Of a stretch of DNA of 34,160 bases, positions 3-33,910 are shown in pieces. This DNA comes from Candidatus Kerfeldbacteria bacterium (GTDB lineage: Bacteria; Patescibacteriota; Patescibacteriia; UBA9570; XYC2-FULL-38-9). How positions within the stretch are numbered: position 1 is the stretch's first letter; each line of letters starts with the position of its first letter. The stretch lies in contig JAHBAR020000042.1 of the NCBI GenBank assembly GCA_018500015.2, positions 1 to 34,160 on the forward strand. The letters run 5' to 3'. The notes below the pieces were generated by a model. That model searched no databases. It was not told the DNA's origin and saw nothing but the letters and a program-made list of their open reading frames with translations. Both the position numbers and the translations under genes were made by a program.

Positions 3-2717
3 AAGCAATTTGGATTTCCGCTCATGATTCGGTCAGCTTTTTCGCTTGGCGGAAAAGGGAGCGGGGTTATTCATTCTATAGAAGAGCTGCGTGAGCGTTT
101 AGATGAAGCGTTTGCTTCTGTCCCGCAGGTATTGATTGAAGAGTATCTTGGTGGCTGGAAGGAGATTGAGTATGAGGTTGTGCGCGACAATAACGACAAC
201 TGCGTCACCGTGTGCAACATGGAGAATATGGATCCGATGGGCATTCACACCGGCGAAAGTATTGTGATCGCTCCATCGCAAACACTGACGAACGCTGAGT
301 ACCATCATTTGCGCAATATTGCTATTAAAACCATCCGTCATCTGGGTATTATTGGTGAATGCAATATTCAATATTCGCTTAATCCAAAAACATCGGAGTA
401 CCGCGTCATCGAAGTCAATGCTCGTTTGTCTCGCTCGTCTGCCCTTGCATCGAAGGCAACGGGCTATCCTCTTGCATGGGTTGCGGCAAAATTAGCGCTC
501 GGGTATCGCATGAATGAAATTCGCAATAAGATGACTGGTGTAACACAAGCATTTTTTGAACCTGCGCTTGATTATGTAGCGATTAAAATGCCGCGCTGGG
601 ACCTGACAAAATTCAAAGCAGCAAATCGTCGCATTGGTTCTGAGATGAAGAGTGTTGGGGAGGTCATGGCACTCGGACGAACATTTGAAGAGGCCATTCA
701 AAAAGCAGCGCGCATGGTGAGCGTTGGCGCGCAAGGCGTTATTGCACCACAGATTGCGATTGAGAATATTGACGACGAGCTTGAGCACCCAACAGACCGT
801 CGTTTGTTCGCATTGTCTCGCGCATTTGAACGCGGAGACTCAGTTGACGAGGTGTTTGAAAAAACTAAAATTACACCATGGTTTTTACATCGCATCAAAC
901 GTATCACTGATTTAAAGAGGCAGATCGAAAAAACAAAAACATTCTCAAAAGAGTTGTTACGAGAGGCAAAAGAAGCTGGTTTTTCTGACATACAAATTGC
1001 GCAGTTCCGCAAAACGACCCACGAAAAAATTCGCATACAGCGTAAGAAGCATCATGTCACCCCTGTCATCAAACAGATCGACACACTCGCTGGTGAATTT
1101 CCCGCGCAAACAAACTATCTCTACTGCACGTATTATGGTTCTGTTTCTGATATAGAGCCTTCACAAAACAGCATGATGGTGCTTGGCAGTGGTCCATATC
1201 GTATTGGCTCCTCTGTAGAATTTGATTGGTGTGGTGTCCAAGCTGTGCACACTGCAAAGCAAAAAGGGTTTTCGACGATCATGCTTAATTGTAATCCTGA
1301 AACGGTCTCGACAGATTTTGATATGTGTGATCGTTTGTATTTTGACGAACTCACACTCGAGCGTGTTCTTGATATTGTTGATTACGAAAAGCCTGAAGGT
1401 GTGAATGTGTCCATGGGTGGACAAACGCCAAACACACTCGCGCTCCCTCTGCACAAGCATGGAGTGAAGCTTCTCGGAACATCTGCAGAAAGCATTGATC
1501 GCGCAGAAGATCGTAATAAATTTTCACGACTGTGCGATGAGCTTGGTGTTGAGCAGCCTGAATGGAAAGAGCTTACAACAATGAAAGATGCTGAGAAATT
1601 CGCAGATCGCGTTGGATACCCAGTGCTTATTCGTCCTTCGTATGTGCTCTCAGGTGCTGCGATGAATATTGTTACTTCGCAAGAGCACCTCAAAGCGTAC
1701 CTAGAAGAAGCAGCTGCTGTATCTGCTGAACATCCCGTGGTCATTTCCAAGTTTATCGAAGGTGCCAAGGAAATTGAGGTCGATGGTGTCGCACAAAACG
1801 GCAAGTTGGTCATGTACGCTTTTTCAGAACACATTGAAAATGCTGGTATTCACTCTGGTGACGCAACTGTTGTGCTGCCTCCTCAGAAATCATACTTAGA
1901 AACAATTCGTCAAATAAAAAAACGTACGCGTGCCATTGTAAAAAAACTTCACATTACAGGGCCATTTAATATACAATTTCTCGCACGTTCAAATAAGTTG
2001 CGCGTCATTGAGTTAAACTTACGCGCATCACGCAGCTTTCCCTTTGTGTCGAAGGTGACCAAATATAACTTTGTCGACATCGCAACGCGTGCAATGCTTG
2101 GCGAAGATGTCTCTGGTTCGTACAACACTCTCGATCTTGATTATGTTGCTGTGAAGGCACCGCAATTTTCATATTCGCGTATCAAAGGTGCTGATCCAGT
2201 GCTTCATGTAGAAATGGGTTCTACGGGTGAAGTTGCGTGCTTTGGTGCAGATATGCACGAGGCATTGCTCAAAGCACTTGTAGCTTCAGATGTGCGTATG
2301 CCGAAGAAAAATATACTGGTTTCAATTGGTAAAGATGAAGACAAGGCTGCGCTTACAAAATATATTCGGATGTTGTCGGATCTTGGATATACCTTGTATG
2401 CTACAGAGCACACTGCAGACTTCTTAGAAAAAAATGAAGTTCGTGTGAAACGCATATACAAAGTATCCGATAAAAAATCTCCAAATGTGTTGGAGTATAT
2501 GAACGCAGGCAAAATTGACTGTATCATTAATATTCCGCGCTCCTATACGCGCGTTGCTGCAAGTGATGGATATGTGATTCGTAGAACAGCAATTGATCGC
2601 AATATCACTCTCTTTTCAAATGTTCAGCTTGTAAAAGAGTTTATTGTGGGATTGCAACTCTTGCAACAAGGAAAAATTCAGCTTTCAATTAAGGCATGGG
2701 ACGAATATGAAAAATAA
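3..2717 (+). CDS. carB: Carbamoyl-phosphate synthase large subunit, N-terminus cut by window edge
   Basis: Frame is open from base 3 (KQFGFPLMIRSAFSLGGKGSG...), two ATP-grasp halves (EYEVVRD...EVNARLSRSSALASKATGYPLA; IEVDGVAQNGK...ELNLRASRSFPFVSK), C-terminal MGS-like domain. Confidence 0.96.
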   Translation, partial: KQFGFPLMIRSAFSLGGKGSGVIHSIEELRERLDEAFASVPQVLIEEYLGGWKEIEYEVVRDNNDNCVTVCNMENMDPMGIHTGESIVIAPSQTLTNAEYHHLRNIAIKTIRHLGIIGECNIQYSLNPKTSEYRVIEVNARLSRSSALASKATGYPLAWVAAKLALGYRMNEIRNKMTGVTQAFFEPALDYVAIKMPRWDLTKFKAANRRIGSEMKSVGEVMALGRTFEEAIQKAARMVSVGAQGVIAPQIAIENIDDELEHPTDRRLFALSRAFERGDSVDEVFEKTKITPWFLHRIKRITDLKRQIEKTKTFSKELLREAKEAGFSDIQIAQFRKTTHEKIRIQRKKHHVTPVIKQIDTLAGEFPAQTNYLYCTYYGSVSDIEPSQNSMMVLGSGPYRIGSSVEFDWCGVQAVHTAKQKGFSTIMLNCNPETVSTDFDMCDRLYFDELTLERVLDIVDYEKPEGVNVSMGGQTPNTLALPLHKHGVKLLGTSAESIDRAEDRNKFSRLCDELGVEQPEWKELTTMKDAEKFADRVGYPVLIRPSYVLSGAAMNIVTSQEHLKAYLEEAAAVSAEHPVVISKFIEGAKEIEVDGVAQNGKLVMYAFSEHIENAGIHSGDATVVLPPQKSYLETIRQIKKRTRAIVKKLHITGPFNIQFLARSNKLRVIELNLRASRSFPFVSKVTKYNFVDIATRAMLGEDVSGSYNTLDLDYVAVKAPQFSYSRIKGADPVLHVEMGSTGEVACFGADMHEALLKALVASDVRMPKKNILVSIGKDEDKAALTKYIRMLSDLGYTLYATEHTADFLEKNEVRVKRIYKVSDKKSPNVLEYMNAGKIDCIINIPRSYTRVAASDGYVIRRTAIDRNITLFSNVQLVKEFIVGLQLLQQGKIQLSIKAWDEYEK

Positions 2718-3633
2718 TACGTTTAGCGACATTCTTGGAATCGAACAATTTTCCGCACAAGATTTACTCTCGATTATTGATCGTGCACGTCTTTTTACAG
2801 AAAAAGGAATCCCATCAGACGTGCTGCGTGGCGCTGTTGTGGGTCCTCTCTTTTTTGAACCCTCAACACGCACGCGATTGTCATTTGAAGCTGCTGTACA
2901 CAGACTTGGTGGGTCGGTAATAGGTTTTGAAAACACAGAGTCGACTTCAATTACAAAGGGAGAAACTTTTGAAGACACCATTCGTATGGTTGATGGATAT
3001 GTTGATTTTCTTGTTGTACGCCATCCAGAAGCGGGCGCAGCACAGCGTGCAGCATCTGTTGCCGAGCATGCTGTGATTAATGCTGGAGATGGCGCACATG
3101 AGCATCCTACGCAGAGTTTGCTTGATCTCTTTACGATTGCGCAGAGTCAGGGCTCTCTTGAGAAGCCGCTCAAAATTGCTTTTGTCGGTGATTTAAAATA
3201 TGGTCGTGTACCGCACTCTGATGCTAAAGCTCTCGCGCTATTTTCAAACATCGAACAGTATTGGGTTGCTCCAGATGCGCTACGCATGCCTGATGATGTG
3301 CGCGCGTATGTTCAATCGAAAGGAGTAACGGTTGTTGAAACAGCTGATGTAGCAAATGTATTACCTGAGGCAGATATTGTGGTGATGACACGAGTTCAAA
3401 AGGAACGTTTTGCTGATGTTGCCGAATATGAGAAAGTGAAAGATGTGTATATCCTCACCCCTGAAATGTGTATGAGTATAAAAAAGAGTATGCGTATTTT
3501 ACATCCTCTTCCTCGTCGATACGAAATTCCAGAGAGTATTGATGCGCTACCTCAAGCATATTACTTTCAACAAGCGCGTTTTGGTGTCCCTGTTCGCGCA
3601 GCCCTTCTTTCTCTCATCGTTGAGAATCAATAG
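2707..3633 (+). CDS. pyrB: Aspartate carbamoyltransferase catalytic subunit
   Basis: FFEPSTRTRLSFEAAVHRLGG, HPTQSLLDLFTI, HPLPRRYEIP motifs; ATG at 2707 overlaps carB end by 11 bp. Confidence 0.95.
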   Translation: MKNNTFSDILGIEQFSAQDLLSIIDRARLFTEKGIPSDVLRGAVVGPLFFEPSTRTRLSFEAAVHRLGGSVIGFENTESTSITKGETFEDTIRMVDGYVDFLVVRHPEAGAAQRAASVAEHAVINAGDGAHEHPTQSLLDLFTIAQSQGSLEKPLKIAFVGDLKYGRVPHSDAKALALFSNIEQYWVAPDALRMPDDVRAYVQSKGVTVVETADVANVLPEADIVVMTRVQKERFADVAEYEKVKDVYILTPEMCMSIKKSMRILHPLPRRYEIPESIDALPQAYYFQQARFGVPVRAALLSLIVENQ

Positions 3634-18363: not shown

Positions 18364-19314
18364 ATGCGCACGGTTTTTTGGGTTTTTTTCGTAGTCTTGG
18401 CATCCTGCCAAGACTACGGTCTTGGCAAGGTCGACTCGGAGGGGGAGACGGCTCCCTCCTTCGAGTCCGGAGGCGGCAACGCCTCCGACACTGCTTGCCC
18501 GGGGGAGACCACCCCGGGCGGCAACAACGACCAGGACTGCGACGGCTACGCCGCCGCAGTCACCGACTGCGACGACGGCGACCCGTCGATTCACCCCGGC
18601 GCCGCCGAGGTCTGCGAGGATGGCATCGACCAGGACTGCGACGGCATCGACCTCGCCTGCCCGGACACGGGCGGCGGGGAAACCGGCGAGACCGCCGACA
18701 CCGCGGAGAGCGGCGACAGCGGGGAGACCGAGGACACGGGGTCCAGTGGGACCACCGCCATCGGCACGTTCACCGTGCCCGACGGCGCGACCCAGGTGAA
18801 CGCCTGGGTGCAGGTTCAGTGTCAGGACGACCCGTCGTCCTGTCTCGACATCCAGACGCTGCTCCAGCGTCTGACGTTGGCAAATGCCGACGGCTCTCTC
18901 ATTCTCGAGACGGATTTCACCGGCATTCTGGAGGTCTCTGACCTTCAGTGGTCCGGGGAGATCGCCGAGGTGGGGTGTGACGGGATGGAGGGGTGTAAGA
19001 CCCCCACCTACCCGCCCTTGGAGTTCTTCACGGACTCCAAGGACAACTCGGGGCTCGTCTTTACGGCCCCGGCCGGCTGCTACGCCGGTCCCTTCTCCTG
19101 CAACGTCGACCTCGACTGCGACCGGCCGGTGGTCGCGGGCACCGAGCTCTCGTTTACCGGCGCGCTGTGCCGGTACGACGAAGGGGAGGGGGATGTGCAG
19201 TTCCGACTGGGTATGGACTTTTTCGAGGAGCGGAACGGTACCTACATCTCGTCCATCGAGAAGGAGTGGATTTCGTTCCCTGTCGGCACCTGTTTCGAGG
19301 TGTTGACAAAATAG
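18364..19314 (+). CDS. GC-rich predicted lipoprotein with MopE-like metal-binding motif
   Basis: SD GGAGGTG; signal/lipobox MRTVFWVFFVVLASC; NDQDCDGYAAAVTDCDDGDPSIHPGAAEVCEDGIDQDCDGIDLACPDTGGGETGETADTAESGDSGETEDTG. Confidence 0.85.
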   Translation: MRTVFWVFFVVLASCQDYGLGKVDSEGETAPSFESGGGNASDTACPGETTPGGNNDQDCDGYAAAVTDCDDGDPSIHPGAAEVCEDGIDQDCDGIDLACPDTGGGETGETADTAESGDSGETEDTGSSGTTAIGTFTVPDGATQVNAWVQVQCQDDPSSCLDIQTLLQRLTLANADGSLILETDFTGILEVSDLQWSGEIAEVGCDGMEGCKTPTYPPLEFFTDSKDNSGLVFTAPAGCYAGPFSCNVDLDCDRPVVAGTELSFTGALCRYDEGEGDVQFRLGMDFFEERNGTYISSIEKEWISFPVGTCFEVLTK

Positions 19315-19532: not shown

Positions 19533-19742
19533 ACGTGGGTCCTGTCACCGATGCTTCCCTAGCCGTGCTCGCAGTACATCATTGGCATGCTGATGTACTT
19601 CTGCGCTTCGTCTAGGGAACCCGCATCGGTGCCACCCACTTTTACAGATTACATAGCGGGTGGTGCCAGACGTAGGGTTCCCGGCGCCACGCAGCCACGA
19701 AGTGGCGAGGACGACGGGATACGTGGGCGACAGGACCCGCGT
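19533..19742. repeat. Four-way-junction (cloverleaf) structured intergenic element
   Basis: P1 ACGTGGGTCCTGTC (19533-19546)/GACAGGACCCGCGT (19729-19742); P2 19550-19562/19612-19627 enclosing AGTACATCA/TGATGTACT; P3 GGTGCCACCC (19628-19637)/GGGTGGTGCC (19658-19667); P4 ACGTA+TCCCG (19670-19683)/CGGGATACGT (19715-19724) enclosing CGCCAC/GTGGCG. Confidence 0.8.
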
Positions 19743-33770: not shown

Positions 33771-33910
33771 ACGCGGGTCCTGCCGCCTGGGTACCCCACC
33801 GTCCTCGTGACTGACGCACTCCGGGCGGCGGAGGCCTCCCCCTTGGCGTCACCCGCTGTATTTTTGTTGTCATGAGCTCGGAGGTCTTAAGGCCGACGTG
33901 GCAATCTTTT
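33771..33910. repeat. GC-rich intergenic repeat cluster
   Basis: 33771-33812 matches the reverse complement of 19701-19742 at 33 of 42 ungapped positions by hand count; CCGACGTGGCAATCTT near 33890-33909 matches CCGACGCGGCAATCTT of the 10671-10787 element. Confidence 0.65.

Follow-up and report, generated by a model that had tools for sequence, protein, structure and literature searches.

A head-to-head pair of palindromic repeat units in a Candidatus Kerfeldbacteria contig, probably part of a mobile element dispersed across bacterial phyla

Introduction

Knowledge of short palindromic repeats in bacteria tends to be confined to single genera, and in many cases their mover is not understood. 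Rickettsia palindromic elements (RPEs), known from Rickettsiales, are mobile palindromes roughly 100 nt long that insert into protein genes without breaking the reading frame, and no enzyme is known to mobilise them. MITEs are derivatives of particular insertion sequences (IS), whose ends they share, and integron attC sites carry a variable terminal hairpin. REPs are palindromes of 20-40 bp with stems of 5-13 bp and an unpaired GTAG or CGTC tag, and the RPEs of R. conorii end with CGTC (PMC3733652). QMITE2 of Coxiella is one example of a bacterial MITE (PMC5896051) and attC sites are recognised by structure, not sequence, on one folded strand (PMC2727003).

The window, that is, the whole stretch of DNA analysed here, comprises 34,160 nucleotides of contig JAHBAR020000042.1 from a Candidatus Kerfeldbacteria bacterium (assembly GCA_018500015.2). 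At positions 19533-19742 the initial annotation had described an element folding into a four-way junction, and had considered a structured non-coding RNA, a MITE-like mobile repeat and a recombination substrate. This stretch is not one RNA; it contains one repeat twice, in head-to-head orientation. The region probably represents two units of a mobile palindromic element that is old, dispersed and non-autonomous and that is recognised in folded form and moved in trans, and a role of the stretch as a putative recombination substrate is possible.

An inverted pair of repeat units in the window

The two-unit layout (Table 1) was deduced by aligning the BLAST matches to the stretch in its own genome (15 matches; 1.07 Mb in 48 contigs), most of which cover one half only. 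Copies of unit A elsewhere in this genome are up to 94% identical, and unit B is 91% identical to a copy at C2:11069-11157 (both by BLAST). The covariance model R1, trained on own-genome copies only, matches at 22 places in the genome, strongly at 17 of them, while the model R2 finds 20 copies, and three subtypes of the unit (A, B and C) are distinguished there. A second inverted pair of the same design, with a spacer of 16 nt, lies at C36:45405-45617. The P2 and P4 arms of the initial annotation are the inner parts of the two units, and its P1 stem is formed by their paired 3' ends.

Table 1. Features of the repeat units in the window. E-values of R1 and R2 are rough, and the R1 training set included both unit A and unit B.
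Feature	Positions	Strand	Description
Unit A	19533..19640	-	5' AGTGGGTGGC ... GACAGGACCCACGT 3' on the minus strand; R1 E 7e-22, R2 E 5e-12
Unit B	19655..19742	+	5' AGCGGGTGGTGCC ... GACAGGACCCGCGT 3'; R1 E 1e-16, R2 E 2e-10
Spacer between inverted units A and B	19641..19654	.	14 nt, TTTACAGATTACAT; read from the sequence
P1 5' arm (14-bp closing stem)	19533..19546	.	3' terminal motif of unit A, GACAGGACCCACGT, on the minus strand
P1 3' arm (14-bp closing stem)	19729..19742	.	3' terminal motif of unit B
P3 of the initial annotation	19628..19667	.	5' terminal motifs (AGYGGGTGG) of both units, paired across the spacer
Unit A internal-loop motif and variable apical hairpin	19565..19606	-	GCGCAG ... 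CGAGCAC (minus strand); alignment A1, 113-unit parse
Unit B internal-loop motif and short apical hairpin	19690..19712	+	CGCAG ... CGAGGAC; alignment A1, 113-unit parse
Third, diverged unit	33771..33857	-	R1 E 2e-9, R2 E 3e-11; absent from both training sets

The strong fold proposed for the stretch is borne out, with minimum free energies (MFE) of -117.3 kcal/mol on the plus strand (z -7.75 against dinucleotide shuffles) and -114.3 kcal/mol on the minus strand (z -7.4), that is, a z of about -7.5 on both. None of 200 dinucleotide shuffles matched the real fold on either strand, so that the comparison with shuffled controls, named beforehand as a check, came out in favour of the real sequence. 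In the MFE structure the two halves are paired with each other, and the 14-bp closing stem described earlier (19533-19546/19729-19742) is part of it; the exact four-way junction reaches only -103.9 kcal/mol and is not the MFE structure, and two independent hairpins reach -94.2 kcal/mol. When DNA parameters are used, the junction (-49.6) and the two hairpins (-48.2) are nearly equal. An inverted pair can thus adopt either of two pairings, the four-way junction or two separate hairpins, and the idea of a single four-way-junction RNA is rejected, because two inverted units explain the junction as a by-product and many copies elsewhere stand alone.

The placement of the element between a terminator and an SDR-family gene, with no plausible ORF, agrees with the sequence. 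Searches of Rfam 15 with the window element and nine other loci gave no convincing match even at lax E-values, and a known RNA family, which the initial annotation had likewise failed to recognise, is rejected on this ground. The one Rfam match lying over a unit (locus L077) is to a microRNA model on the reverse strand, with 31.7 bits against a cut-off of 100, and represents a generic hairpin match. Upstream of the element, a predicted protein with a Cu-binding MopE-type metal-binding motif is encoded at 18364-19314.

Conserved structure, covariation and strand

The unit is a long imperfect hairpin of 75-125 nt with the ends GGGTGRC...GRCAGGACCC, an internal loop C[GSA]/[GA]G and a variable apical hairpin. 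When 98 units drawn from many phyla are aligned to R1, 92.8% of pairs are kept; shuffling the partners lowers this to 70.1%, and shifting them by 1-3 columns to 29-52%. Two-sided changes were counted 441 times, compared with 133 in shuffles. This alignment was fitted to the R1 model, which works in the model's favour. In a MAFFT alignment of the own-genome copies, the paired fraction is 95.2% against 84.0%, with 46 two-sided changes against 15.6. Compensatory changes, which had been suggested as a means of checking the element, are present in both sets.

Covariation extends to positions outside canonical pairing. Near the base of the hairpin, where GGGTG[R]C faces G[R']CAGG, a non-canonical purine pair is G.A in 60 copies, A.G in 42 and something else in 7, so that one of the two purine arrangements occurs in 102 of 109 copies (Fisher p 4e-13 for the swap among folding matches, copies not being independent). 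The pair adjoining the internal loop is G-C in 61 cases and C-G in 31, and both this position and the purine pair were left free by the search pattern described below. This G.A/A.G covariation and the conserved loops point to specific recognition of the folded strand.

As to which strand is folded, G.T pairs outnumber A.C pairs in the inner stems (P2-P3) by 35 to 11 (p 5e-4, copies not independent), and the forward strand is therefore probably the folded one. G.T pairs are rare in the parsed stems, 35 against 1251 Watson-Crick pairs, which is a hint toward DNA and not a proof. Outside the core, palindromic arms with at least 8 perfect pairs flank 13 of 95 units, against 0.18 expected from partner-swapped flanks, and they may reflect target choice or a later templated change.

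Distribution across phyla and copy number

Related units were found in Omnitrophota, Acidobacteria/Aminicenantes, Gammaproteobacteria (including Legionella relatives), Nitrospirota (Nitrospira), Deltaproteobacteria, Actinobacteria, Patescibacteria and others, and the R1 search gave further copies in relatives; the search for homologues, another of the checks named at the outset, thus returned copies in the own genome and in other genomes. A pattern combining the conserved ends and the loop (GGGTGRC-N-GAGNAC-N-GRCAGGACCC), run against one genome per GTDB species, matched at least 120 stretches. By a rough estimate, about 100 chance matches are expected for a pattern of such size in the full 264 Gb, and the matches were therefore checked by fold. 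Those from Streptomyces, Frankia and similar genomes do not fold into the hairpin and, since the distant loci were mostly fetched by this repeat-derived pattern, some of them, such as these, are chance matches. Of 127 distinct matches compared with shuffles, in a test that is conservative for GC-rich sequence, 69 fall at z<-2 and 45 at z<-3. The internal-loop motif, whose 5' side was not fixed by the pattern, is present in 68 of these 69 and in 47 of the remaining 58. Many distant loci have an R1 E below 1e-6, a score of which the pattern search had preselected a part.

Copy numbers were counted with R2 in 17 genomes chosen because they bear units, and they reach 105 in G060 and 97 in G061 (both gammaproteobacteria), 68 in G065, 60 in G059 (Omnitrophota), 28 in G066 and 27 in G063 (Actinobacteria). 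Units are present in 24 of 389 genomes sampled evenly from the own class. The sources are mostly metagenome-assembled genomes, and consequently phylum assignments resting on a single copy may include contamination, those of genomes with tens of copies being safer. One clear unit (R2 E 1e-10) lies at 2916-3010 of the viral contig IMGVR_UViG_3300036760_000384 (locus L180), a possible carrier between hosts; for the queries tried, BLAST gave no match in plasmid and phage collections.

Genomic layout, flanks and in-frame insertions

In the genomes surveyed, units occur singly or as inverted pairs. G060 has at least 10 such pairs, in which the units are about 50 nt apart and enclose the palindrome TGAATCCGGCCGGATTCA or a related one. 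Beyond the core, the units vary by lineage, with 14-bp inverted repeats (TCCGGCCGGATTCA/TGAATCCGGCCGGA) framing the units as terminal repeats in G060, other arms shared among the copies of G053, and no terminal repeats in G063, whose copies have CGAG at the right end and often also at the left. No clean target-site duplication could be defined for the units. Within contigs the orientation of units is mixed, which is at odds with a strictly lagging-strand single-strand mechanism, and it is mixed relative to neighbouring genes as well.

Several other small repeats were observed close to units or in the same genomes. Most units of G061 (loci L260-L266) have the small hairpin TTCCACGAAGTGGAA or a variant of it little over 10 nt upstream, the variants differing in sequence and keeping the pairing. 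A different palindromic repeat, GAGCTCGGAGGTCTTAAGGCCGACGTGGCAATC, adjoins the third unit of the window (at about 33874-33907) and resembles repeats near other units. Two own-genome units, at G000:C26:3706-3788 and G000:C45:93-199 (L041 and L042), contain at the same spot a 24-nt palindrome, CCATGTCGTTCGCGAACGACATGG, bounded on both sides by CAGG, as if a REP-like repeat had inserted with a 4-nt duplication. At locus L021, the Y1 gene at 2516-3160 of G000:C28 has on both sides a repeated stretch with the translation PPNPICHQIGFGAKT, which is probably that gene's own REP.

Units also lie inside protein-coding genes. The ksgA gene of G069 carries one, at which the match to solved KsgA proteins breaks and the spacer measures 34 residues against 8. 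In 11 other genomes of the same family the two flanking KsgA halves match in separate pieces, and in all 6 relatives compared in sequence the insertion is missing. It amounts to 30 codons (90 nt), coincides with the unit, and would fit a 2-nt duplication of GC. Once these 90 nt are removed, the gene has the spacing of a relative, 17 residues between two landmarks as counted residue by residue, which suggests that both arms predate the insertion or were reshaped without a change in length. The C-terminus of this KsgA protein is encoded by a second unit. In G063, a unit of about 75 nt lies in frame within hisF (27 residues against 2 in HisF-LUCA), and another lies in frame within a ferredoxin-domain gene. 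The units in ksgA, hisF and the ferredoxin-domain gene are strong signs of insertion, as judged by sequence comparison between species, not strains. The cases of ksgA and hisF show that core genes tolerate hairpin DNA, which is thereby a source of new peptide segments. Together, the roughly 20 dispersed copies in the own genome, the in-frame gene insertions elsewhere and the compensatory changes support the mobile-repeat reading that the initial annotation had listed among its options.

The search for a mover and the alternative explanations

If the units were REP sequences of exceptional length belonging to a RAYT/Y1 transposase, and the pair in the window a true REPIN, their inverted pairing and intergenic dispersal would be accounted for, as would the finding that 3 of the 5 Y1_Tnp genes of the own genome lie within about 3 kb of a unit and that 13 of 16 unit-bearing genomes have a Y1 gene. 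This nearness is not repeated elsewhere, however: none of 30 Y1 loci taken with about 1.5 kb on each side contains a unit, the repeat on either side of the Y1 gene in the 105-copy genome is another one (GGGGACAGATTTATTTT), and, among 389 genomes, Y1 genes are found in 12 of 24 with units and in 196 of 365 without (p 0.83). A profile built from the own-genome Y1 genes, applied alongside a control, detected no Y1 gene in the distant loci, and no GTAG or CGTC tag was seen at unit ends, the conserved ends being GGGTGRC/GRCAGGACCC. Adjacency and co-occurrence both failing, a RAYT/Y1 transposase is unsupported as the mover, and the REPIN explanation is quite improbable. Spread through an RNA copy and a reverse transcriptase, as in a bacterial SINE, would agree with the RNA-like conserved loops and the strand asymmetry; it is very improbable, given that reverse transcriptase genes are not enriched (found in 14 of 24 unit-bearing genomes and in 183 of the other 365, p 0.53) and are absent from genomes carrying 8 and 11 units, and the enzyme is rejected as the mover for want of co-occurrence. 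An all-against-all comparison of ORFs around the loci revealed no recurrent mobile gene among the 25 largest clusters, all of them common household families. The moving factor thus does not appear to be a RAYT/Y1 transposase or a reverse transcriptase, and a mover since lost may lie beyond the reach of co-occurrence tests.

The 14-bp inverted repeats around the G060 units and the common arms of the G053 copies are what would be expected of ordinary MITEs of DDE insertion sequences that share a hairpin core by chance. Elsewhere these outer repeats vary or are missing, and conservation across phyla lies in the core, which is opposite to the MITE pattern; moreover, no autonomous copy or full-length transposon with the G060 terminal repeats is present among the pattern matches listed in that genome, and this explanation is rather improbable. 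Finally, each unit or the whole junction could be a structured non-coding RNA that serves the host in regulation or protein binding, and the deeply conserved non-helical motifs (the G.A/A.G swap and the C[GSA]/[GA]G loop) and the one-strand bias of G.T over A.C are indeed RNA-like. Such a role is nevertheless unlikely as the main explanation, considering the approximately 100 dispersed copies in some genomes, the units inserted inside unrelated genes and in mixed orientation to their neighbours, the scarcity of G.T pairs, the negative Rfam searches and the lack of units in most relatives; the pair arrangement seen in the window is, in addition, not general.

Under the preferred reading of a mobile palindromic element, the unit would be recognised as a folded hairpin of the forward strand, more likely in single-stranded DNA or an extruded cruciform than in RNA, and a factor supplied in trans would move it to new, often palindromic, sites, any host role of the unit or of the junction being presumably secondary. 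A wider proposal, put forward tentatively, is that the units form an unnamed superfamily, whose conserved folded core, with two non-canonical motifs and purine-pair covariation across phyla, might be served by a conserved protein that recognises the folded strand and inserts it, frequently into palindromic sites or accompanied by palindromic flanks, independently of RAYT and reverse transcriptase. One structural core shared by many phyla, including the ultra-small Patescibacteria, provides a model with which such a superfamily can be searched for as a whole, and also a direct route for seeking its mover.

Comparison with known repeat families

A limited search of the open-access literature found no description of the unit family, and the literature matches listed for the terminal motif are all unrelated. 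The units resemble REPs, REPINs and BIMEs in being intergenic, foldable palindromic repeats, often in inverted pairs and also found inside genes (PMC3733652), the inverted pairs being those of the window, of C36 and of G060. They differ in their size of 75-125 nt, in their two conserved internal loops and in the missing link to Y1 genes and, with size, tag and transposase link all departing from the definition given in PMC3733652, they are not members of the REP/RAYT family as defined there.

With attC sites the units share a variable terminal hairpin and recognition of a folded strand, described for attC in PMC2727003 and proposed here for the unit. They differ in that, on inspection of alignments A1 and A2, their ends are GGGTGRC/GRCAGGACCC and not R boxes, and in that they form no cassette arrays. 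MITEs are similar in being small, non-autonomous, hairpin-forming and dispersed, and some unit subfamilies have terminal inverted repeats, but across phyla it is the core of the unit that is conserved and not the ends. RPEs are likewise palindromic mobile DNA of about 100 nt found in frame inside genes, here ksgA, hisF and the ferredoxin-domain gene, whereas the unit family, set apart from RPEs on the basis of their description, spans many phyla and has a conserved core of its own. The unit family, which is without REP tags or a transposase link, is likened in its workings to the REPIN, RPE and MITE repeats.
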